From positions 1-36,027 of the forward strand of contig JARKPC010000055.1 of NCBI GenBank assembly GCA_029975435.1: 36,027 bases of DNA, given 5' to 3'. Below the pieces are notes generated by a model. The model did not search any database, was not told the origin of the DNA, and saw only the letters and a program-made list of their open reading frames with translations. The translations under genes were made by a program, and so were the position numbers. The DNA comes from Propionivibrio sp. (GTDB lineage Bacteria; Pseudomonadota; Gammaproteobacteria; Burkholderiales; Rhodocyclaceae). Below are positions 22,712 to 33,515 of the stretch, piece after piece; positions within the stretch are counted from its first letter, which is position 1, and each line of letters begins with the position of its first letter.

Positions 22712-23668
22712 CTATTCTCCCGACTCAGAGTTCCTTGTGCCCCGAGGTTGCAGCAACGTCCTGAAACCCTTGGCTCCGGTCAACGGCAGCCGTTCGGGCA
22801 AGGTGCTCCACTCCAGGATCTTCTCGATAATCAGGCGCTTCGTCTCGTCCGGCTGAGCCATTGTTGAAGCCATCCTGAAACAGAGAATCGATGTGTGGTT
22901 GTGCATTTGCAGACGGTAGTAGTAGGTCAATTGAGCGATCGTGCTGCGATAGACCCACAGGAACAGAGCGGAGATGAATTCGACGATTGCCGCGCCGCTC
23001 AGTATCAGGATATTGAAGTCCTGCGGCGGCCGCGTGAGGTTGAATCTCTCCACAGGACCGACATAGAGAGCAATGCCGATCAGCAGCAGCAAGAAGCCGA
23101 GCCACATCGCCAGCACGGCATTGAAGAAACTGCCCCGCGTCTGTTTGAGCCCGATTTCGTAGTAAGCGTCGAGTTGCGCGCGGCTGTAGCGAAGTAGCGG
23201 GAGCAACCCGGCGGCATCGCTCTGTTCCAGCCGATCGATTGCATCCTGCTCGGTTTCGCGCACGCTCTCCTTGACCCGTTCAATAGCCGTATCCTGGATC
23301 TCGAAGGAGATATCAGCGACGAAACCGGCCACTCCAAGTACCAGGCCGGTTGCCCAGAATGGCGCGGCGAACAGGAAGAAAAATCCGAAGAAGGACGGTA
23401 TCCATCGCCACTTCTCCTCATTGGCAAAATCCCATAGCCGCTGCGGCAGGTCGTACCACGAATAATAGGCGATTGGCAGAAGCAGCACGAACAACGCAGC
23501 AACCAGACCCCACATGACTACCAGTGTTTTCGGATAGCGCACGAGGTACATTCGGAGCGTTTGGGCGAGCGGATCCCGTGACTTCTTCTGCAACAACTGT
23601 TCCGAACCCTGCTCTACGGTTCCTTGCGAACCGCCCTGCACTGTCTGGGGTGACGTATGTTCGGTCAT
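22712..23668 (-). CDS. Four-helix membrane protein, possible TRADD-N-associated-type 2TM domain
   Basis: A 318-residue protein of unknown function. A polar, Gln/Ser-rich N-terminus (1-42) precedes TM1 and TM2 (about 48-72 and 90-125, with FFGFFFLFAAPFWATGLVLG). A helical cytoplasmic linker (125-205, QDTAIERVKESVRETEQDAI) follows, then a second TM pair (about 208-232 and 245-270). The second half, with SFFNAVLAMWLGFLLLLIGIA, then LSGAAIVEFISALFLWVYRS and a YYYRLQMHNH tail, recalls the two-helix module described with TRADD-N domains in predicted conflict systems; that is from memory and uncertain. The start ATG at 23668 follows GGAGAG; a longer frame to 23977 is antisense or overlap noise. It lies 100 bases after hydE on the same strand and looks less GC-rich than its neighbours. 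Confidence 0.8.
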   Translation of the reverse strand: MTEHTSPQTVQGGSQGTVEQGSEQLLQKKSRDPLAQTLRMYLVRYPKTLVVMWGLVAALFVLLLPIAYYSWYDLPQRLWDFANEEKWRWIPSFFGFFFLFAAPFWATGLVLGVAGFVADISFEIQDTAIERVKESVRETEQDAIDRLEQSDAAGLLPLLRYSRAQLDAYYEIGLKQTRGSFFNAVLAMWLGFLLLLIGIALYVGPVERFNLTRPPQDFNILILSGAAIVEFISALFLWVYRSTIAQLTYYYRLQMHNHTSILCFRMASTMAQPDETKRLIIEKILEWSTLPERLPLTGAKGFRTLLQPRGTRNSESGE

Positions 23669-23679
23669 GATCACTCTCC

Positions 23680-23696
23680 GCATCAAGCGTTGATGC
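23680..23696. promoter_or_regulatory. Seven-base inverted repeat ahead of the membrane gene
   Basis: GCATCAA-gcg-TTGATGC sits immediately upstream of the GGAGAG ribosome site of the membrane-protein gene, in the 100-base gap after hydE. It may be an operator or a small mRNA hairpin. There is no U-tract, so a terminator is unlikely. Confidence 0.35.
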
Positions 23697-23768
23697 AACC
23701 TGAGACCCTTTCGGCTGAACCAGCCAACCGTGGAGACTACGCCTTCACTATAGGCGAGATATCCACGC

Positions 23769-24935
23769 TCAGACAATTCGCCCAGGGCGCTGGGCGAAAT
23801 GTGTTGAATCCCCCCACTGATTCTTCTCGATCCGCCGCCCGACCGAAGCGATACGGTTTTCCAGACAGACTGCGCACTGCTCGGCGGAATCGTCGAGGCA
23901 GGGCTTGCCGTCGTAGAGGGTGTACATCTTGCGTACGGCCGGCGGCGTGACCTGCGGCATGATGACATTGGCACCAAAGCGAAGCCCCTGTTCGCGGCCG
24001 TCGTCGGCCATCGCCTGCAGCGCGGTGGTGGCAGCGATGTTGACGTCGCGCAGCAACAATCGCGCGGCGGCGATCATGCGCAGGCCGAGGCGCAGGCGCT
24101 CGTCGGCCGGAGGAATCTCCGGTGCGCCGGGCAGCACGGCCTGGGCGTGCGGAATGTACGGTCCCATGCCGATCATGTCGACGTCCATGTCGCGGAAGAA
24201 CAAGAGGTCGCCGATCAGGTGGTCGACGGTCTGTCCCGGCAGGCCGATCATCACGCCGGTGCCGACCTGGTAGCCGATCTCGCGCAGACTCTTCAGGCAG
24301 GCGACGCGCGTCTCCAGACGTTGGCTTTCCGGGTGGAGCCGGGCAAAGAGTTCGGGGGACGAGCTCTCGATACGCAGCAGATAGCGGTGCGCGCCGGCGG
24401 CGAACCAGCGCGCGTACGTCTCCGGCGCCTGCTCGCCGACGCACAGGGTGATGCCCAGACCCTCGGGCTGTGCTTCGGTGCGGGTGGCGTCCTTGATCGC
24501 ACGGATCATCGCCTCGACGCGGCGCACGAAGGCAGCATCGCGCCGTTCGCCGGATTGCAGTACGAGCGAGCCGTAGCCCTTGTCGGCGCACCAGCGCGCG
24601 CAGGCGACGACGTCGTCAAGTGTCAGGCTGTAGCGCTTCACGGTGCGGTTGCCGCGACGGATGCCGCAGTAGTGGCAGTCGAGCACGCAGCGGTTGGAGA
24701 ACTCGACGAGGCCGCGCAGGCGCACGGTGTCGCCGCAGTGGGCGAGCATTACCTTCTCGGCGGCGGCGCGGATGACTTCGACCTCGTCCGGGTCGGCGGC
24801 GGTAAGGATGCGGCGTAGCACGTCAGTCGCGTCGCCGCGCTGCCAGTCGCTGTCCAGCAGGTCGGCAAGCTCGTACGCGCCGGCGCCGGGCGGCGCCGCG
24901 CGATGGTGCCAGACGATCCGGGCCGTCTGGCTCAC
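23769..24935 (-). CDS. hydE: [FeFe] hydrogenase maturase HydE (radical SAM)
   Basis: Radical SAM enzyme that works on the HydG-derived Fe(CO)2CN-cysteine synthon on the way to the diiron subcluster of the H-cluster. The 388-residue protein carries the CxxxCxxC triad (C83, C87, C90 in NRCVLDCHYCG), followed by TLDDVVACARWCADKGYGSL, LQSGERRDA, YLLRIESSSPELFARLHP, VGTGVMIGLPGQT, IGMGPYIPH and a C-terminal C-x7-C-x2-C (CLDDSAEQCAVC) matching the accessory cluster site of T. maritima HydE. The start is the GTG in a GTGA overlap with hydF. It is the last maturation gene of the operon. BioB is a homologue, but the blocks and context are those of HydE. Confidence 0.96.
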   Translation of the reverse strand: MSQTARIVWHHRAAPPGAGAYELADLLDSDWQRGDATDVLRRILTAADPDEVEVIRAAAEKVMLAHCGDTVRLRGLVEFSNRCVLDCHYCGIRRGNRTVKRYSLTLDDVVACARWCADKGYGSLVLQSGERRDAAFVRRVEAMIRAIKDATRTEAQPEGLGITLCVGEQAPETYARWFAAGAHRYLLRIESSSPELFARLHPESQRLETRVACLKSLREIGYQVGTGVMIGLPGQTVDHLIGDLLFFRDMDVDMIGMGPYIPHAQAVLPGAPEIPPADERLRLGLRMIAAARLLLRDVNIAATTALQAMADDGREQGLRFGANVIMPQVTPPAVRKMYTLYDGKPCLDDSAEQCAVCLENRIASVGRRIEKNQWGDSTHFAQRPGRIV

Positions 24936-26173
24936 GCGGCGGCCCCTTCGAGCGCGCGGCGGTAGGCGTCCAGGGCAGCGGGGAAGCATTGCAGCGAGCG
25001 GTCGAGCACGCCCTGCACCACCGAGATGGCCATGCCGTAGTTGGTCATCGGCACGCCCTGCCGGGCCGCGCGGTACTGGCGCGCGAGCATCTGCCGGCAC
25101 GTCACGGTGCAGCCGCCGCACTGCACGATCAGCGCGTACGGCGTGAGGTCGTCGGGAAAATCGCGACCGGATTTCACGTCGATCTCCAGGTTGCCGCCGG
25201 CGAACTGGCGCAGCCAGCGCGGGATCTTCACCCGCCCGATGTCGTCGGCCAGCGCGTGGTGCGAACAGGCTTCCGAGATCAGCACCCGGTCGCCCGGCCG
25301 CAGGCGCGAGAGGGCGCCGGCGCCCTCGGCCAGCCCGATCATGTCGCCCTTGAAGCGGGCCATCAGGATCGAGAAAGTGGTGAGCGGAATGTCGCGCGGC
25401 GTGTCGGCGGCGACCTTGAGCACCACCTGCGAGTCGCAGACGACGAGCTTCGGCGGCGTGGCGAGGCGTGCCAGCGCATCGGGCAGTTCGCGCTCCTTGA
25501 CCATCATGCCGGTCGCATCGCTGTCGAGGATGTCGCGCAGGGTCTGCACCTGCGGCAGGATCAGCCGCCCCTTCGGCGCGCCGAGGTCGATCGGCACGAC
25601 GAGGACGACGACGTCGCCCGGCCCGATCAGATCGCCGATCAGGCGCGCGTCCTCCAGGCCGCCCTCCGGCGCCTGGCGGAACATCGCTTCCTTGAGCGAG
25701 TCGATGCCCTGACCCTGGCCAGCGCTGACGACGACCGACTCGACGTTGTCGGCGGCCAGATCCATCAGCTGCGCCTTGCCCGGCTCCGCGAGGTCGGACT
25801 TGTTGAAGACGACGACGAACGGCGTTTTCCGTTCGCGCAGCGTGACGATCAATTCCTGTTCGAGCGACCCGACCCGCCCGTCATCAACGACGATCAGCGC
25901 GAGATCGACGCACTCCAGCACGGCACGGGTTTTCTGCACACGCAACGCGCCGAGTTCGCCCTCGTCGTCGAGACCGGCCGTATCCACGAACACCACGGCG
26001 CCGAGCGGCGCGAGTTCGTAGGCTTTCTCCACCGGGTCGGTGGTCGTTCCCGGATGCGCCGAGACGATCGACACCGACTGCCCGATCAGCGCGTTCATCA
26101 GCGTCGACTTGCCGCTGTTGCGCTTGCCGAAGAGGCCGATGTGCAGGCGCAGGCCCTTGGGGGTGTCTTGCAT
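24932..26173 (-). CDS. hydF: [FeFe] hydrogenase maturation GTPase HydF
   Basis: Scaffold GTPase on which the diiron subcluster is assembled before transfer to HydA. The 413-residue protein has an N-terminal Era/TrmE-like G domain (P-loop GKRNSGKS at 16-23, HPGTTTDP, DTAGLDD, NKSDL), a dimerisation middle domain, and a C-terminal cluster domain with ACSHHAL and VQCGGC. The family consensus is CxH-x(46-53)-HCxxC. Here the residue before CxxC is Gln instead of His, with 45 residues between; the three cysteines are kept. The ATG follows AAGGA. The gene is 196 bases downstream of aspA, a gap holding inverted repeats, and is coupled to hydE by GTGA. Confidence 0.96.
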   Translation of the reverse strand: MQDTPKGLRLHIGLFGKRNSGKSTLMNALIGQSVSIVSAHPGTTTDPVEKAYELAPLGAVVFVDTAGLDDEGELGALRVQKTRAVLECVDLALIVVDDGRVGSLEQELIVTLRERKTPFVVVFNKSDLAEPGKAQLMDLAADNVESVVVSAGQGQGIDSLKEAMFRQAPEGGLEDARLIGDLIGPGDVVVLVVPIDLGAPKGRLILPQVQTLRDILDSDATGMMVKERELPDALARLATPPKLVVCDSQVVLKVAADTPRDIPLTTFSILMARFKGDMIGLAEGAGALSRLRPGDRVLISEACSHHALADDIGRVKIPRWLRQFAGGNLEIDVKSGRDFPDDLTPYALIVQCGGCTVTCRQMLARQYRAARQGVPMTNYGMAISVVQGVLDRSLQCFPAALDAYRRALEGAAA

Positions 26174-26218
26174 GGTCAGTCCTTGGAATTCATATGAGGG
26201 CTACGCGGATGTAGCTCC

Positions 26219-26372
26219 GTCTCCCCACTGACAAGGGGGGAACAAGGGGGGTTGAACAACGGTTCCGTGGCCCCACCAAACGCTGCAAACCCCTCCCGAC
26301 CTCCCCTTGTCAGGGGAGGGGCCGTCACGCCGTCGTCTGAGCTCCGAAACATTGTGGTTAGTCCGTTGTTCA
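26219..26372. repeat. Inverted-repeat element between aspA and hydF
   Basis: TCCCCactgacaaggggGGA (about 26220-26241) is met in inverse orientation by CTCCCCTTGTCAGGGGAG (about 26301-26318), the latter also a hairpin within CCCTCCC...GGGAGGGG. Independently, TGAACAACGG at 26253-26262 recurs inverted at 26363-26372, where it overlaps the aspA stop codon. The set looks like a small dispersed non-coding repeat (REP/MITE-like). No gene is supported in this 196-base gap. Confidence 0.6.
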
Positions 26373-27770
26373 CTTTCTGTACCCGAGCGCCGTCATCGCG
26401 TCCACCGACAGCAGGCGGTCGAGCACTTCCGGCGCAAGCAGGCCGCGGGCGAGAACGACTTCGCGGATCGTGCGTTTTTCGCGTTGCGCTTCCCTGGCCA
26501 CGTCGGCGGCGAGTTCATAGCCGAGCGCCGGCACCAGCGCGGTGACCTGCGCGTGCGAATGTTCGAGCAGGTCGGCGCAGCGTTCGGCGTCGGCCTCAAG
26601 CCCCTCGATGCAGTGGGTGCGGAACAGCGTGTCGGCGCGCTCCAGCAGGTCCAGGTTGCCGAGCAGCGCGTGCGCCACCAGCGGCAGGAAGGCGTTGAGC
26701 TCCAACTGGCCGGACTGGGCGGCAAGGGTCACCGCCTGATCCTGCGCGATGGCCTGCAGCGCGGCCTGGCCGACGGCTTCGCAGATCACCGGGTTGACCT
26801 TGCCCGGCATGACGCTGGAGCCGACCTGCACGGCCGGCAGGCGCAGTTCGCCGATCCCGGCGTGCGGGCCCGAGGCCAGGAGGCGCAGGTCGGAGGAAAT
26901 CTTGAACAGATTGACCGCGTGCGCCTTGAGGATGCCGGAGACTTCGACGAAGGCGTCGGCATTCTGCGTGGCGTCGACGAGGTTCTCGGCGCGCGCCAGG
27001 TTCATCTTCGTCACCTCGCGCAGCGCGTCGGTGACGCGGAAGATGTACTCGCGCGGCGCGGTGAGGCCGGTGCCGATCGCCGTGCCGCCAAGGTTGACCA
27101 CGCGGATTCGCTCCTCGCACTTGAACACGCGCCAGCGGTCGCGGCCGAAGGCTTCGGCCCACGCCGAAAATTCCGCGCCGAGCGTCATCGGGCAGGCGTC
27201 CTGCAACTGCGTGCGCCCGACCTTGACGATGTGCGCGAAGTCGCGTTCCCTGGCCTGGAACGCCGTCTGCAGCGCGGCGATGGCTTTCTCCAGGCGGCGC
27301 AGGCCATCGGTCGCCGCCACCTTGAGCGCCGTCGGAAAAACGTCGTTGGTCGACTGGTGCAGGTTGACATGATGCAGCGGATGCACGCGCCGGTACTCGC
27401 CGCGCCGGCCGCCAAGCGCTTCCTCGGCGCGGTTGGCGATCACCTCGTTGACGTTCATGTTGAGCGAGGTGCCGGCGCCGCCCTGCAGGGCGTCGACGAC
27501 GACGGCGGCGGTCAATGCGGCGTTTCCTTCGGCCAGTTCGCGGCAGGCATCGGCAATGGCCGCGCCGACCTCCTTGTCCAGATAGCCGAGCGCGGTGTTG
27601 GTCTGCGCGCAGGCGAGCTTGACGAGCGCCATGCCGCGCACCAACGACGGCGCGCACGGCCGCCCGGTCAGCGGAAAATTGATGAGCGCCCGCGCCGTGT
27701 GGATGCCGTAGAGGGCGTCGGCGGGGACGGCGAATTCGCCGAGGGAGTCGGTTTCGGTGCGTGTCGGCAT
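26370..27770 (-). CDS. aspA: Aspartate ammonia-lyase (fumarase/aspartase superfamily)
   Basis: Reversibly splits L-aspartate to fumarate and ammonia. The 466-residue protein has the superfamily blocks VNLHQSTNDVFPTALKVA, VGRTQLQDACPMTLG, GGTAIGTGL and the signature GSSVMPGKVNPV, whose flexible loop carries the catalytic serine. The C-terminal RTIREVVLARGLL resembles aspartases more than fumarases. The start is the ATG at 27770 after GGGAG, 19 bases beyond the hydG stop; upstream frame is antisense noise. It is embedded between hydG and hydF, so a role in supplying ammonia or fumarate to hydrogenase maturation or to fermentative metabolism is likely. I recall aspA beside hyd maturation genes in other anaerobes. 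Fumarase activity is not excluded. Confidence 0.92.
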   Translation of the reverse strand: MPTRTETDSLGEFAVPADALYGIHTARALINFPLTGRPCAPSLVRGMALVKLACAQTNTALGYLDKEVGAAIADACRELAEGNAALTAAVVVDALQGGAGTSLNMNVNEVIANRAEEALGGRRGEYRRVHPLHHVNLHQSTNDVFPTALKVAATDGLRRLEKAIAALQTAFQARERDFAHIVKVGRTQLQDACPMTLGAEFSAWAEAFGRDRWRVFKCEERIRVVNLGGTAIGTGLTAPREYIFRVTDALREVTKMNLARAENLVDATQNADAFVEVSGILKAHAVNLFKISSDLRLLASGPHAGIGELRLPAVQVGSSVMPGKVNPVICEAVGQAALQAIAQDQAVTLAAQSGQLELNAFLPLVAHALLGNLDLLERADTLFRTHCIEGLEADAERCADLLEHSHAQVTALVPALGYELAADVAREAQREKRTIREVVLARGLLAPEVLDRLLSVDAMTALGYRK

Positions 27771-27789
27771 CGGCGGCTGCTCCCTCGCC

Positions 27790-29193
27790 TCAGCAGAACA
27801 CGTCCCGCTTGCCGGCGCGGATGTGCGCCAGCATCTTCTCGGCGTTGCGTCGCGTCCTGGCGCCCATCTTGTCGAGTTCGCAGGCGATCGCCGCTTCGCC
27901 GACGCAGCGGGCGCTGTCCGAACCATAGTCGGTCAGGTATTCGAGGAAGGTGGTCACCGCGTTGGGGTCGCACTTCTGCTTGATCAGGCCGGGCTTGGCA
28001 AGATCCATGAAGTCCTGTCCGGTGCGCCCGAGCCGGTAGCAGGCGGTGCAGAACGAAGGGATGAAGCCCATCGCCGCGAGTTCGGCGATGACCTCGTCGA
28101 GCGAGCGATGGTCGCCGAGTTGGAACTGTCCCGAAGTCGTTTCGCCCTCGCTGTAACCGCCGGGGTTGGTGCGGCTGCCGGCGGATATCTGCGACACGCC
28201 GAGCGCGTAGCACTCTCGGCGGATCGCCGCCGATTCGCGCGTCGACAGGATGATTCCGGTATAGGGCACGGCAAGGCGGAGGATGGCGATGATCTTGCGG
28301 AAATCATCGTCCGACACCGGGGCCGGCGGATTGATCGACACGTCGGAGCCGTCCGCCGGCTCCATGCGCGGCACGCTGATGGTGTGGCAGCCGACGCCGA
28401 ACGCATCCTCCAGGTGCGCGATGTGCTGCATCAGGCTGAGGATTTCGAATCGCCAGTCAGCGAGGCCGAACAGCACCCCCATGCCGACGTCGTCGATGCC
28501 GGCCTGCATGGCGCGGTCGAGGGCGGTGGCGCGCCAGTCGAAGTCACGCTTCCTGCCGGAGAGGTGCACCGCCGCGTAGGTGTCGCGGTGGTAGGTCTCC
28601 TGGAACAGCTGGTAGGTACCGATCTCGGCCTTTTTCAATTGCGCGAATTCCTCGACCGTCAGCGGCGCAAGGTTTACGTTGAGCCGGCGGATATGGCCGT
28701 GCGCCTCGGTCACGTCATACACCGCCCGGATCGCGTCGAGCACGTAGTCGAAGCCACCGCGCGACGCCGCATACCCCTCGCCGGCGACCATCAGCAGGCG
28801 CTTGTGGCCTTGTTTTACCAGTTCGCGCACGTCGGAGCGGATGCCGTCCATGGAAAGCGCCGTGCGCGGCAAGGCCTTGTTGGCCGAACGAAAGGCGCAG
28901 TAGGTGCAGTCGTTGCCGCAGACGTTGGAAATGTACAACGGCGCGAACAGCACCATGCGCCGGCCGTAGATTTCTTCCTTGACCTGCCGCGCCGTGACGA
29001 ACAGTTCCTCCGCCAGATCCGGCGTGGCGATGCCACACAGCGCGGCCACCTCGGCCGCATCCAGTCCCTTCAGCTCACGTGCCTTGGCCAGGACCTCGCG
29101 CACGCGCCCGACGTCGGGCGCGGAAGCACGCAGGATGTCCTCCGCATCGGCGGGATGCAGCCACTCGGAGGCCGGACAGAAGTGCCTATCCAT
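27790..29193 (-). CDS. hydG: [FeFe] hydrogenase maturase HydG (radical SAM tyrosine lyase)
   Basis: Cleaves tyrosine to p-cresol and dehydroglycine and yields the CO and CN- ligands as an Fe(CO)2CN-cysteine synthon. The 467-residue protein has the SAM-cluster triad C92, C96, C99 (NVCGNDCTYCAF) and a C-terminal C-x2-C-x22-C (CTACYRLGRTGQDF ... KC) that binds the auxiliary [5Fe-5S] cluster; it is this site that separates HydG from the thiamine enzyme ThiH. Other matching blocks are MVAGEGYAASRG, YQLFQETYHRDTY, GMGVLFGLADWRFE, VPRMEPADGSD and SAGSRTNPGGY. The start is preceded by AGGGA and lies 30 bases after hydA. Confidence 0.97.
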   Translation of the reverse strand: MDRHFCPASEWLHPADAEDILRASAPDVGRVREVLAKARELKGLDAAEVAALCGIATPDLAEELFVTARQVKEEIYGRRMVLFAPLYISNVCGNDCTYCAFRSANKALPRTALSMDGIRSDVRELVKQGHKRLLMVAGEGYAASRGGFDYVLDAIRAVYDVTEAHGHIRRLNVNLAPLTVEEFAQLKKAEIGTYQLFQETYHRDTYAAVHLSGRKRDFDWRATALDRAMQAGIDDVGMGVLFGLADWRFEILSLMQHIAHLEDAFGVGCHTISVPRMEPADGSDVSINPPAPVSDDDFRKIIAILRLAVPYTGIILSTRESAAIRRECYALGVSQISAGSRTNPGGYSEGETTSGQFQLGDHRSLDEVIAELAAMGFIPSFCTACYRLGRTGQDFMDLAKPGLIKQKCDPNAVTTFLEYLTDYGSDSARCVGEAAIACELDKMGARTRRNAEKMLAHIRAGKRDVFC

Positions 29194-29223
29194 GCGCCAT
29201 TCCCTGTCGCCGTGAACTTCCGA

Positions 29224-31029
29224 TCATTCCCCGCGCCCTTCCTGTTCGCGCAACTCCTTCCACTCCTCGCGGATATTCGCATCGACGCCGCACGGCCGCG
29301 GACCATAGTGCGTGTGCAACATATGGTGCGCCTTCTCGGAATGCGGCGCGCCGAGGAACTCGGCATACAGCTTCTTGACCTGCGTGTTGTTGTGCGACTG
29401 GCGCACCTTGGCCTTGCGGTCGATATTGAAGATCGTCTCGCGCCGCCGCATGGCATGCGGGATGTAGGCCTTCTTGGAACGCAGCGTGCCGCCGCCGTCG
29501 ACGCAACCGCCGGGACAGGCCATGATCTCGATGAAGTCGAAATCGGCCTTTCCGGCCAGCACGGCTTCGACCAGGCGCCGTGTTCCCTTGAGGCCATGGC
29601 ACATGGCCACCTTGATCTCGCCATACTGGCGCCCGAGATCGACGGTAGCCGAGCGCACGTTGTCGAAACCGCGCAGCTGCGAGACTTCGATGTGCTCCAG
29701 TTCCTTGCCGTTGAGCACGTAGTACATGGTGCGCACCGCCGCTTCCATGACCCCGCCGGTGGTGCCGAAGATGGCGCCGGCGCCGGAGTATTCGCTCATC
29801 AACGGGTCGTCGTAGGAAGAAGGCTCCAGATTCTTCAGATCGATGCCCTCGCGGCGCAACAGGCGCGCGAACTCGCGCATCGTCAGGACGACGTCCACGT
29901 CCGGATAGCCGTTGTTGCGCAACGCCGGGCGGGCTGCCTCTTCCTTCTTGGCAGTGCAGGGCATGATCGAGACCACGCGCATTTTCTCGGGATCGAAGCC
30001 GCGTTTCTCCGCCAGATACGTCTTGGCGATCTTGCCGACCACCGCCTGCGGCGAGCGGGTCGAGGACAGCAGCGGCAGCACGTCCGGGTAATGCTTCTCG
30101 GCGAAGTTGATCCACGCCGGGCAACAGGACGTAAAGACCGGACGTTTTTTCTCGGCCAGCTTGCCGAGCAGTTCGGTGCCTTCCTCCATGATCACCACGT
30201 CGGCGCCGAAGTTTGTATCCAGAATGACGTCGGCGCCAATGTTGCGCAACGCGGCGATGATCTGCCCCTCGACGTTGGTCCCGGCCGGCAGGCCGAATTC
30301 TTCGCCAAAGCCGACACGGATGGCCGGAGCCATCTGGAAGACGGTGATGATCTCCGGATCGGCGAGATAGTCGAGCACGTCCTGCGTCTGATCCCGCTCT
30401 GAGAGCGCTCCCGTCGGACAGACCATGACGCACTGACCGCAGGTCACGCAGGGAGACACGTCGACCGAACCGCCCTTCAGCGCCACGCCAGCCGTCCGTC
30501 CCCAGCCGGTCATCTCCAGCGCATCGACGCCCTGAACGGTACGGCACACAGCCACGCAGCGCTGGCAGCGGATACAGCGGCTGCGGTCATAGACGACCGG
30601 TTGGGTGCCCGTATCGGGCGCCAGATCCTTCCAGCCCTCGGTATAGCGGAAGCGGATCTGCTTCAGGCCCACCGAATTGGCCACGGGCAGCAACTCGCAG
30701 TTGCCGTTGCGCGGGCAGGTGGAGCAATCCTGATGGTGATCGGCCATGATCATTTCCATCTGCAACTGGCGCATCTCCTGCACGACCGGCGTCCGTGTCA
30801 TGACCTGCCAGCCCTCGGCGAGCGGGGTATCGCAGGCGGTCACGTATTCCGGCCCGGCACCGCCCGGCCGCCGCACCTCGACGACGCAGACGCGACAGGT
30901 GCCCGGCGCGTGGTCGATGTCGTTCAGCTCGCAAAGGGTCGGAATGTGGATGCCATGGCGGCGGGCCACATCCAGAATGGTTTCGTTCGCTTCGAATGCG
31001 TAGTCTTGTCCGTTGATCGTGGCGTACAT
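29224..31029 (-). CDS. hydA: [FeFe] hydrogenase catalytic subunit, group A
   Basis: Catalyses H2 <-> 2H+ + 2e-. In the 601-residue protein, residues 1-75 are a plant-type [2Fe-2S] domain (C33, C45, C48, C66). A NuoG-like His/Cys cluster site follows (H98/H99, C102, C105, C111), then two [4Fe-4S] motifs (CIRCQRCVAVC near 152 and CVTCGQCVMVCP near 194). The H-cluster domain carries L1 FTSCCPAW (C302 proton relay, C303 ligand), L2 MPCTAKKEE (356-364, C358) and L3 EIMACPGGCVDGGG (501-514, C505, C509). The small-subunit-like tail ends near 600. All catalytic residues are canonical, so it should be active. It lies 6 bases after the flavin oxidoreductase gene, its probable electron partner. Confidence 0.97.
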   Translation of the reverse strand: MYATINGQDYAFEANETILDVARRHGIHIPTLCELNDIDHAPGTCRVCVVEVRRPGGAGPEYVTACDTPLAEGWQVMTRTPVVQEMRQLQMEMIMADHHQDCSTCPRNGNCELLPVANSVGLKQIRFRYTEGWKDLAPDTGTQPVVYDRSRCIRCQRCVAVCRTVQGVDALEMTGWGRTAGVALKGGSVDVSPCVTCGQCVMVCPTGALSERDQTQDVLDYLADPEIITVFQMAPAIRVGFGEEFGLPAGTNVEGQIIAALRNIGADVILDTNFGADVVIMEEGTELLGKLAEKKRPVFTSCCPAWINFAEKHYPDVLPLLSSTRSPQAVVGKIAKTYLAEKRGFDPEKMRVVSIMPCTAKKEEAARPALRNNGYPDVDVVLTMREFARLLRREGIDLKNLEPSSYDDPLMSEYSGAGAIFGTTGGVMEAAVRTMYYVLNGKELEHIEVSQLRGFDNVRSATVDLGRQYGEIKVAMCHGLKGTRRLVEAVLAGKADFDFIEIMACPGGCVDGGGTLRSKKAYIPHAMRRRETIFNIDRKAKVRQSHNNTQVKKLYAEFLGAPHSEKAHHMLHTHYGPRPCGVDANIREEWKELREQEGRGE

Positions 31030-31035
31030 GATCGA

Positions 31036-33042
31036 TCACCCTGCAATGGTTGATGGTTTGACGGCAGCGTGGCCGCTGCGCAGCGATTTTTCCGTAATCA
31101 CCGAGTAGAGGCGATAACAGCGCAGGCAGCGGCTGGCTTCTTCGTAGGCCGCTTCCTTGGGAATCACGCCATCGACCTCGTCGAAGCTGCGAATACGCTG
31201 CTCCGCTTCCAGTTCGGGGACTTTCGCGCGCAGCTTGTTGATCGGCGGATGCGTCAGGCACTCGTTCGCCAGCAGCTTGTTGCGGGCCAGGAATTTCTGC
31301 ATCCGCAGGGCCGGTTTGTCGTGAATCCGGCCGTCCAGCAGGTATTCGCGAATGCTCGCCGCCGCCCGCTCGCCGTGGTCCAGCGCATTGACCAGCGTCA
31401 GCGGGCCGAGCACGCAATCGCCGCCCGCGAACACTCCCGGACGCGAGGTCTCGAGCGTATCCGGGTCGGCCTTGACGCAGTTCCAACGGTCGAGTTCGAT
31501 GCCGTCGTCCGGAGAGAGCACGTTTTCGTCGACCACCTGGCCAATCGCCGCGATGAGCCAGTCACAGGGCATGAATGACTCGGAATCCGGAATCGGCTCG
31601 ACGCTACGCCGGCCGCGCGCGTCGACTTCCGTCTGGCGCATGCTCACCAACTTGACGCCGATCAGCCGGTCGTCCTCGATGACGAGTTCCGACGGATTGG
31701 TCAGGCAATGGAAGATGATCCCTTCGTGTTCGGCGGCGTGGACCTCCTCGCGGTCGGCCGGCATGTCCTTGAGCGTCCGGCGATACACCAGATGCACCGA
31801 CTTCGCACCCAGCCGCCGCGCCGAGCGGACGCAATCCATCGCGACGTTGCCGCCGCCAACGACGACCACATCGCCCCCGAACTCGAACGGCTCGCCATAT
31901 TCGACGCGCTTATGCACGTTGAGCAGAAAGTCGATTCCCGACGAGTAACCCTGCGGCACCAGCTCTTCGTTCTGGACGCCGAGTTGCGCCTCCTTGCTCG
32001 CGCCGTAAGCGAGGAAAACCGCGTCGTACCCCTTGCCCAGCAGGTCGTCGATCGAGAAGTCGCGGCCGAGCATCTTGCCGTAGTAGAAGTGCCCCCCGAG
32101 CTGGCGGATGATGTCCTCGCTCTCCGCCTTGAGCACGTCCTTGGGCAGGCGGTAGCTGGGAATCCCGACCGAGGCCATGCCGCCAGCGGCCCGATTGGCG
32201 TCGAAGACGTCGACCTGAATGCCGCCAAGCAGGAGCTTGTAGGCGCAGGTGATGCCGGCTGGCCCGGCGCCGATCACCGCCACGCGCTTGTCGTGCTGCT
32301 CGGCGCTGGGCGTGAACTTGAGCCGCCCCTGCTTCAGCGCCTGGTCCGCGGCATAGCGCTTCAACATGCGAATGCCGACGGCCCCTTCTGCCGCGTTGCG
32401 CCGGCAGGCATCCTCGCAGAAGCGGACGCAGACCCGGCCGCAGGTGGCCGCCATGGAATACTTGTCGAGGACCACGCCGAGAGCGAAATCGAACTTGCCG
32501 CCCTTGACGCCGTCGATGTAGCGCGGGACGTCGATCTTGGACGGACAGGCTTCGATGCACGGCGCGGTGGTATAGACAAAACTGTGCTGAAACACGGCCT
32601 GGGCCGGCGTCATGGCCTTGAATTCGGTTCGGAAATGCCGCAACGCCTCGAGCAGGCTGCGCGCGCAGTTCTGCCCCATGCCACAGAGGGAGGTCTGGGT
32701 AACCTGCCAGGCGAGTGTTTGAGCCTCGTCGAGCGACTCGGATGCGGCAGTCCCGGCGGAAATGCCCTTGAGCAGATCGCGCAGACGCTGCGTGCCGACG
32801 CGGCACGGTGTGCATCGGCCGCACGATTCGTTGGCTGCCTGCGTCAGATACTGTGCGAAAGCTTCGGCAAGGCAGGTGCTCTCATCAAGAACCAGGAAAC
32901 CGCGATCGGAAATGAATGCCTTGGTCGCCGTGCTTGGCGCAATGTCTTCCAGGCCCGACAGGCCCGGCACATCCTTCTTGCCCGGACCCCGCCGCGCGTC
33001 GTAGACGACACCGTCCCAAACCCCATAAACGCAGTGACTCAT
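31036..33042 (-). CDS. NuoF-cluster/GltD-like NAD(P)H oxidoreductase, hydrogenase partner
   Basis: A 668-residue fusion. Residues about 25-145 match only the C-terminal [4Fe-4S] part of NuoF (NESCGRCTPCRVGTQ with C74, C77, C80 and SLCGMGQNC with C120); the FMN/NADH-binding NuoF domain is missing. Residues about 150-640 are a GltD/NfnB-like flavoprotein: cysteine clusters APCIEACPSKIDVP and CGRVCVRFCEDACRR, FAD motif VIGAGPAGI (256-264), second nucleotide motif VVGGGNVAMD (about 397) and GDCVLGPLTLVNA. It should carry electrons between NAD(P)H and HydA, as in the glutamate-synthase-linked (A2) class. The start is the ATG at 33042 after GGAGG. It is the first gene of the hydrogenase operon. Confidence 0.92.
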   Translation of the reverse strand: MSHCVYGVWDGVVYDARRGPGKKDVPGLSGLEDIAPSTATKAFISDRGFLVLDESTCLAEAFAQYLTQAANESCGRCTPCRVGTQRLRDLLKGISAGTAASESLDEAQTLAWQVTQTSLCGMGQNCARSLLEALRHFRTEFKAMTPAQAVFQHSFVYTTAPCIEACPSKIDVPRYIDGVKGGKFDFALGVVLDKYSMAATCGRVCVRFCEDACRRNAAEGAVGIRMLKRYAADQALKQGRLKFTPSAEQHDKRVAVIGAGPAGITCAYKLLLGGIQVDVFDANRAAGGMASVGIPSYRLPKDVLKAESEDIIRQLGGHFYYGKMLGRDFSIDDLLGKGYDAVFLAYGASKEAQLGVQNEELVPQGYSSGIDFLLNVHKRVEYGEPFEFGGDVVVVGGGNVAMDCVRSARRLGAKSVHLVYRRTLKDMPADREEVHAAEHEGIIFHCLTNPSELVIEDDRLIGVKLVSMRQTEVDARGRRSVEPIPDSESFMPCDWLIAAIGQVVDENVLSPDDGIELDRWNCVKADPDTLETSRPGVFAGGDCVLGPLTLVNALDHGERAAASIREYLLDGRIHDKPALRMQKFLARNKLLANECLTHPPINKLRAKVPELEAEQRIRSFDEVDGVIPKEAAYEEASRCLRCYRLYSVITEKSLRSGHAAVKPSTIAG

Positions 33043-33515
33043 GCCCCCTCCTCAACTCGTAAATATTCTGTCAGCCGACGTATCGAAAAACGCTCCTCGC
33101 CGCCGTCCCTATCGATCCTGTCCTTCCCGTAATTTCAATCCGAATGCATAACATCTGCGAAGCCTGTCGAGCTTCTCAACGCAACATGATCAAATATAAT
33201 CCAACATAAAGAAATTAAAAATTAATGTGGCGTTTGTTAAATAAAAACAAACGCTTCGACCACATCGGCCATCCTGCTGCGAACGTGTCGCCTTCTTCAG
33301 CGAATCGGCGTGCATCGCCAAAAAAATCACCCGCCGCGACATTTCGTCCACGAACGGGCGCCTGCGGAAATCCGCAACCTAAGCGGCAGCGATGGACGGT
33401 CGAGAAAGGCGTTCGGGGATGAGGCGCGGGAAGCCACCCATGGTCGCGCAAGCGGAGGCTCCGGCACGCATCGCGCCGAAACGACAACTTCACGAAACCT
33501 CGGGGGAAACAAAGT
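33043..33515. other. 473-base upstream region of the hydrogenase operon, no gene seen
   Basis: An AT-rich core (about 33185-33250) stands out against GC-rich flanks and probably holds the operon promoter, though I could not fix -35/-10 boxes. Besides the strong palindrome at 33230-33254 (listed separately) there are GAAGC-ctgtcga-GCTTC at 33159-33175 and TGCGGA-aa-TCCGCA at 33363-33376. The 33260-33515 part holds only weak open frames without family resemblance. A structured leader or small RNA is possible but unproven. Confidence 0.6.
33230..33254. promoter_or_regulatory. Perfect 9-base inverted repeat upstream of the hydrogenase operon
   Basis: GCGTTTGTT-aaataaa-AACAAACGC, arms identical and loop of seven A/T bases, lies about 190 bases before the operon's start codon inside the AT-rich core. 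The geometry suits a dimeric regulator operator. There is no T-run after either arm, so it is a poor terminator for the upstream small gene. Confidence 0.5.

Follow-up and report, generated by a model that had tools for sequence, protein, structure and literature searches.

Contig JARKPC010000055.1 of a Propionivibrio sp. draft genome (4.39 Mb, 292 contigs, 81.9% complete), which was analysed in its entire length of 36,027 nucleotides (contig C128, hereafter the window), carries an [FeFe]-hydrogenase operon. Its six genes, which all lie on the minus strand from position 33042 to 23769 as the original prediction had it, encode in transcript order an SfrB-like partner protein, the hydrogenase subunit HydA, the maturase HydG, the aspartate ammonia-lyase AspA and the maturases HydF and HydE. 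The observed basis of the model proposed here consists of gene content, gene order, domain make-up and conserved ligand positions. With a probability of roughly 0.7, the product of the operon is a cytoplasmic, non-bifurcating [FeFe]-hydrogenase of two subunits, which is linked to nicotinamide adenine dinucleotide phosphate (NADP(H)) and matured by factors from the same operon.

We infer a complex of both subunits which is specific for NADPH and does not bifurcate electrons. NADPH would reduce the flavin adenine dinucleotide (FAD) bound by the GltD-type unit of the partner, from which single electrons would pass via a lysine-ligated 4Fe-4S cluster, an all-cysteine 4Fe-4S cluster and then the NuoF-type 4Fe-4S cluster. 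They would next enter the 2Fe-2S/4Fe-4S chain of HydA and end at the H-cluster; the reverse route from H2 to NADPH would also be possible. HydG, HydE and HydF would build the H-cluster, and AspA may deliver the ammonium from which its amine bridge is made and leave fumarate as a by-product.

The SfrB-like partner

The first gene (31036..33042, minus strand) encodes a protein of 668 amino acids, in which a NuoF-type C-terminal 4Fe-4S domain (NADH_4Fe-4S, PF10589; residues 62-143) and a Fer4_20 domain (residues 158-238) are followed by a GltD-type FAD/NAD(P) unit. It had been described as NuoF/GltD-like; the GltD part of this description stands, whereas of NuoF only the C-terminal 4Fe-4S domain is present, without the flavin mononucleotide (FMN) domain. 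No NCBIfam model reaches its cut-off on the protein and, judged from its sequence, the partner is neither a NuoF nor a GltD but a predicted fusion. With a NuoF-type 4Fe-4S domain, Fer4_20 and GltD in one chain of around 650 to 670 amino acids and with complete ligands, it has the features that, in our reading of PMC3543383, PMC7483475, PMC13040438 and PMC5736913, define SfrB, and by these descriptions it is a probable member of that family. Among solved structures, those nearest to it in sequence are 9n5u (chain A), 9bov (chain A) and StnC (8oh5), and a fold search with the partner model ranks the same three complexes first; by both measures, its closest solved relatives are GltD units, namely those of NfnABC and StnABC.

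An alignment of 73 partners (44 HydA-linked ones including that of the window and 29 from the Desulfovibrio phylum) revealed that Cys74, Cys77, Cys80, Cys120, Cys162, Cys166, Cys205, Cys209, Cys213, Cys639, Cys642 and Lys228 are conserved in all 73. Seven of these cysteines, Cys162 to Cys642, and Lys228 would provide the eight ligands for two clusters, and Cys74, Cys77, Cys80 and Cys120 would hold a third; since the 73 partners are homologues, conservation alone does not prove ligation. Lys228 occupies the column of StnC Lys170, which is a lysine in 73/73 partners as well as in 9n5u and 9bov, and a glutamate in two NfnB/NfnL proteins (Glu117 in 4ylf, Glu126 in 5jca). StnC was reported to have lost bifurcation and to hold its proximal cluster by Lys170 or Cys114, the NfnB counterpart being a glutamate, and its K170A/C variants were reported to be inactive (PMC10482914). 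Because a lysine replaces the glutamate of NfnB, as in StnC, the partner is predicted to pass on the electrons of NADPH by a simple route, with no bifurcation at its GltD FAD. The homology of the GltD unit to NfnB/NfnL and a retained FAD-contacting arginine would also suit a hydrogenase that bifurcates or confurcates electrons at the GltD-type FAD itself, in the manner of NfnAB; however, the partner lacks the glutamate at the proximal cluster that marks the bifurcating NfnB/NfnL subunit, and no NfnA-like FAD subunit is present among the six gene products, which makes this alternative improbable.

A Tyr-Arg-Arg motif, which is common to the NADPH-binding proteins StnC and NfnB, is present in 73/73 partners. 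The sequence cannot settle the cofactor, and the same two-subunit enzyme could be linked to NADH instead of NADPH; in view of the shared motif, this is considered rather unlikely.

The catalytic subunit HydA

HydA (29224..31029, minus strand) is a group A, M3-type [FeFe]-hydrogenase according to its domain make-up, the model TIGR02512 (502.7 bits, cut-off 405.95) and a ligand check. It consists of a 2Fe-2S domain, a His-ligated 4Fe-4S domain, two further 4Fe-4S clusters, the H-cluster domain and a C-terminal SSU domain. The canonical H-cluster motifs claimed for it are all intact, namely TSCCPAW (300), MPCTAKKEE (356) and MACPGGCVDGGG (503), with C302, C358, C505 and C509 as H-cluster ligands and C303 present too. 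C33, C45, C48 and C66 serve the 2Fe-2S cluster and H98, C102, C105 and C111 the His-ligated 4Fe-4S cluster, presumably in the roles that the equivalent ligands have in CpI. The cluster ligands are conserved in 43/43 aligned SfrB-linked HydAs, a set that excludes L171 and L172, and C303 in 42/43; the exception, L163, also lacks the exact third motif, though both its cysteines remain.

The best solved relatives of HydA are the HydA1 subunits of HydABC complexes, and the nearest NCBIfam model is the NADH-dependent 'A6', which stays below its cut-off (701 vs 765 bits). Together with the lysine-type GltD units of such complexes, this would fit an A3/StnABC-like complex, in which HydB/HydC-like subunits encoded elsewhere bifurcate and the SfrB-like protein is an extra subunit or an unrelated neighbour. 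However, partner and HydA are adjacent in 24/24 named loci from several phyla (L002-L025, a biased sample collected by HydA similarity), and the partner and HydA trees give broadly matching clades, so that such a complex is considered unlikely. Neither the FMN/NADH domain of NuoF nor a NuoE-like protein was found among the six gene products.

Several points weigh against a non-bifurcating NADPH-linked enzyme. Lysine-type GltD units also occur inside the bifurcating complexes StnABC and NfnABC, where a HydB-like subunit bifurcates; no HydB/HydC-like subunit is encoded in the operon, and the rest of the genome was not searched for such genes. R298 is retained, with an arginine at the Arg201/Arg239 column in 73/73 partners; it is the counterpart of NfnL R201, which supports bifurcation, and is retained in StnC too. 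As a test for NADPH, the Tyr-Arg-Arg motif was compared without an NADH-using control. The partner model has a mean predicted local distance difference test (pLDDT) score of 73.3, with values below 50 for residues 165-237, so that cluster distances cannot be judged; because of this low confidence in the Fer4_20 region, the model was used for the fold match alone. Finally, literature searches, which left most subscription journals outside, surfaced no biochemistry of an SfrB-HydA pair.

Literature searches of the same scope gave no paper on a Propionivibrio [FeFe]-hydrogenase and none joining NADPH, [FeFe]-hydrogenase and GltD.

By arithmetic on assumed potentials, NADPH could drive H2 formation only at H2 pressures lower than about 0.07 kPa (NADPH couple at -320 mV) to about 3 kPa (-370 mV). 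Fermentative H2 release, which the original prediction gave as an example, is one possible direction. Because of these limits, the proposed enzyme would fit a low-H2 or syntrophic setting or, at higher H2, an H2-fed supply of NADPH.

Classification and related systems

In a quick tree with long reference branches, 41 of 43 SfrB-linked HydAs form one clade apart from two HydABC-type HydA1s and from CpI, which we take to be an A1 enzyme; the grouping with A1 or A3 enzymes considered in the original prediction was not found. HydDB lists group A2 as glutamate synthase-linked and putative, with an undetermined role, and places a GltD protein directly downstream of HydA. In the operon, HydG is immediately downstream and the GltD-type protein immediately upstream, so that the label 'A2-like' is borne out by the GltD-type partner beside HydA and by the clade, but not by the position of the partner. 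HydDB further describes A2 as having no NuoF domain; the full NuoF model TIGR01959 reaches only 68 of 559 bits on the partner, yet its C-terminal domain PF10589 is present. For A3 (HydABC), HydDB asks for an FMN/NAD-binding NuoF-type HydB beside HydA, and no FMN/NADH domain was found in the six proteins. The operon resembles HydABC in the architecture and ligands of HydA and differs in lacking an FMN-bearing HydB and a HydC. With A2, likened here by the HydDB table, it shares a group A catalytic subunit and a GltD-type partner gene; it differs in that its partner lies upstream and is fused to a NuoF-type 4Fe-4S domain. An NADP-reducing [FeFe]-hydrogenase of Moorella was reportedly purified by Rosenbaum and Mueller in 2024; as it is said to consist of six subunits and to bear FMN, it would be of a different build. 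The A2 label itself is not used uniformly, CpI being called A2 in PMC9431212.

Among the closest described systems is that of Pelobacter carbinolicus, where in 2012 the SfrB-like Pcar_2503 was proposed to be the NADPH-oxidising partner of the [FeFe]-hydrogenase HndD-1 (Pcar_2502) (PMC3543383). By description, aspA lies between hydG and hydF there too; unlike in the window, where the six genes form one run, hydF and hydG of P. carbinolicus belong to another hydrogenase cluster (PMC3543383). SfrB of Geobacter (from SfrAB) was reported as a relative of StnC (PMC7483475), and the 76 kDa SfrB2 of Moorella thermoacetica as the beta subunit of an NADP-specific formate dehydrogenase (PMC13040438); this beta subunit is reported to combine a 4Fe-4S, a ferredoxin-type and an NADP-binding domain. 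Judged by these descriptions, they are of similar size and probably of the family of the partner; they serve SfrA or formate dehydrogenase, whereas the partner would serve HydA. In Desulfitobacterium, a HydA-like protein was described as containing an SfrB-like stretch (PMC9888536). StnC of Sporomusa ovata StnABC (8oh5) resembles the partner as a GltD-type NADPH unit with a proximal-cluster lysine, which feeds a NuoG/HydA-like Fe-S domain. It differs in its alternate ligand Cys114, a position taken by Val or Ile in 73/73 partners, in the lack of an H-cluster and in its bifurcating partners StnAB.

The SfrB-like protein as a possible module

Among 198 genomes of the Desulfovibrio phylum, 153 contain a match to the partner at 1e-80 or better, including many longer fusions and proteins that match the GltD part only. 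Neighbours were identified by motif and by eye. Of the best 30 loci, one is HydA-linked (the centre itself), 17 are followed closely by a cysteine motif of the formate dehydrogenase type and the other 12 have neither HydA nor this motif within about 1.5 kb; five of these 12 were inspected, three of which contain formate dehydrogenase/NuoG-like proteins and two complex I-like membrane genes. In the latter two (L122, L133), the SfrB-like gene lies directly upstream of genes that appear NuoH/NuoI-like by eye, an arrangement that suggests an NADPH input for complex I.

In a quick partner tree, 42 of 44 HydA-linked sequences group in a single clade (SH-aLRT 100), to which a pair linked to formate dehydrogenase is sister (98). 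The two others, L163 and L170, belong to the genus and fall outside on long branches, which leaves their placement unsure. Both represent a divergent type of SfrB-HydA pair, which in the HydA tree as in the partner tree lies apart from the main clades; the genome of L163 (G356) encodes the usual pair in addition, that of L170 is G390. There is about an even chance that SfrB-like proteins are one interchangeable, lysine-ligated NADPH module, which was adopted by formate dehydrogenases, complex I-like enzymes and, perhaps repeatedly, [FeFe]-hydrogenases; 'A2' would then be its hydrogenase branch and would work as a simple, reversible hydrogenase for NADPH rather than in aid of glutamate synthase. 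H2 oxidation supplying reductant to glutamate synthase, the possible A2 role in HydDB, could draw on the GltD homology of the partner and on the database entry; against this stand the fusion to a NuoF-type cluster domain, the formate dehydrogenase-like or complex I genes that follow the partner in other phyla and the absence of a GltB-like protein among the six gene products, all of which render it highly improbable.

Further GltD-like genes were observed. Directly upstream of partner-hydA, locus L011 (3657-9994) encodes a 2-oxoacid oxidoreductase of two subunits along with a second GltD-like protein that bears a ferredoxin domain, which are a possible electron source, and L014 (3025-6352) also has a second GltD-like gene upstream. 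In the window's genome, an open frame of 1058 amino acids (L177; G000:C94:737-2506) is 36% identical to the partner over residues 42-643 and is probably a larger fusion of partner-type units, and contigs C31, C58 and C77 carry POR_N 2-oxoacid oxidoreductase genes a few kb from GltD-like genes.

Maturation genes, AspA and operon layout

The radical S-adenosylmethionine maturases HydG (27790..29193; TIGR03955, 505 vs cut-off 312 bits) and HydE (23769..24935; TIGR03956, 321 vs 255 bits) and the GTPase scaffold HydF (24932..26173; TIGR03918, 549 vs 326 bits) are all encoded on the minus strand, hydE probably starting with GTG at 24935 and overlapping hydF by 4 nt. On the same strand, aspA (26370..27770) has its probable start at 27770, which is Met 53 of a frame of 518 amino acids that opens at 27926. 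AspA passes the aspartate ammonia-lyase subfamily model NF008909 (627 bits, cut-off 510) and falls below the stricter aspA equivalog TIGR00839 (504 bits, cut-off 681); by these scores it is likely, though not proven, to be an aspartase rather than a fumarase. Ammonia-lyases can provide the bridge nitrogen of the H-cluster in vitro, and aspA, ilvA or sdaA were found near many hydF genes (PMC11736057). In the window and in eight of 13 listed relatives with clustered maturases, aspA lies between hydG and hydF. Elsewhere in the genome, three more AspA relatives were found with 38-41% identity, plus two weak ones, so the aspA of the operon is a separate copy.

The intergenic distances, in transcript order 6, 30, 19, 196 and -4 nt, are in line with a predicted single transcript for the six genes. 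The longest, the aspA-hydF gap (26174..26369), holds a palindromic repeat that recurs in the genome: with E values of no more than 0.01, its 109-base core is matched 19 times, mostly in part and counting the core itself. The nearest relative L002 lacks the repeat at that place and has just a short gap. Propionivibrio dicarboxylicus DSM 5885 (L006), P. soli (L007), Formivibrio citricus (L009; DSM 6150) and others share the six genes in identical order, so that the pattern is not due to chance; P. dicarboxylicus DSM 5885 and F. citricus DSM 6150 are among the type strains with this operon. Neither FNR-like, sigma-54-like nor minus-strand sigma-70-like sites were detected in the upstream region 33043-33515, counts of the FNR-like and sigma-54-like patterns, which were taken from general knowledge, do not exceed those of shuffles across the window, and no Rfam family matches the window at gathering score. 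Adjoining hydE, an open reading frame (22712-23977) matches the transmembrane domain CyanoTRADDas_TM (PF20712) and is 94% kept in L002.

Occurrence and inheritance

The [FeFe]-hydrogenase domain is present in 22/395 genomes of the family, 14/399 of the order and 5/398 of the phylum (four over the cut-off), each tally including the window's own genome; vertical inheritance across most Rhodocyclales, which had been weighed against an acquired operon, is not seen in these counts. In the genus, which is judged to hold P. dicarboxylicus and P. soli, 15 of the 20 genomes listed have the domain, one of them (G390) in the divergent type only, and five lack it (misses ordered by kinship). HydA and rpoB were compared for 11 genus members, with the nearest relative G365 standing in for the window's genome, in which no rpoB was found. 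Both trees contain the starred groups G290+G105, G216+G374 and G365+G301+G052; no starred branches conflict, and the deeper branch order is open in both. Across 55 pairs, which do not represent independent observations, pairwise identities correlate with a Spearman coefficient of 0.91. Because of this agreement, the operon looks old and vertically kept within the genus, and a recent gain in this genome is not favoured.

By rpoB, G109 belongs with the genus (a single clade at 100/100, identities of 84-89%), whereas its HydA is just 55-62% identical to those of the genus and groups with metagenome-assembled genomes (MAGs) of Eisenbacteria and Rhodospirillales (97-99), as does its partner (98). 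Family f20 of the same order lies outside the Propionivibrio/Formivibrio/Paludibacterium clade in both the HydA and the partner tree. We conclude that separate gains or transfers occurred between lineages, with vertical retention and some loss within the genus. The claim that the operon was acquired is thus supported between lineages, given the few carriers in order and family and the patchy trees, but the event does not look recent, given the domain in most listed genus members, the rpoB agreement and the same neighbours flanking the operon in L002. Outside Burkholderiales, MAGs of Rhodospirillales and Eisenbacteria provide the nearest neighbours of HydA. A HydF search in ten genomes gave no match over the cut-off in four, three of these MAGs and the genus member G1154, so that bins may be incomplete or mixed.

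A misbinned contig is unlikely because the operon is flanked by the same genes in L002, the nearest named relative, which is likewise a MAG. Composition, which is weak evidence, gives a guanine-plus-cytosine content (GC) of 0.64-0.69 and a third-position value (GC3) of 0.82-0.91 for the six genes. The window genes purL, bioA, bioF and DUF2863 are close (0.64-0.67 and 0.81-0.87), and dus (0.66/0.78), the histidine kinase gene (0.62/0.74) and the GGDEF-EAL gene (0.57/0.70) are lower; GC3 of aspA and hydF exceeds that of all seven.

Hydrogen metabolism of Propionivibrio

In earlier work, a [NiFe] enzyme of group 3d was attributed to the activated-sludge bacterium 'Ca. P. aalborgensis' (PMC4930944). 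In the window's genome, contig C3 (L116:418-2406) carries a HoxH/HoxY-like [NiFe]-hydrogenase pair by reading of the open frames and a PF00374 match; the genome thus appears to encode two unrelated hydrogenases. The SfrB-HydA type is already known by proposal from Pelobacter in 2012, and the operon of the window is a further member; the present analysis contributes the module tree and the lysine test. The latter yields a concrete prediction, namely an NADPH-linked enzyme that does not bifurcate at the GltD FAD, and the operon widens the H2 metabolism expected of Propionivibrio.

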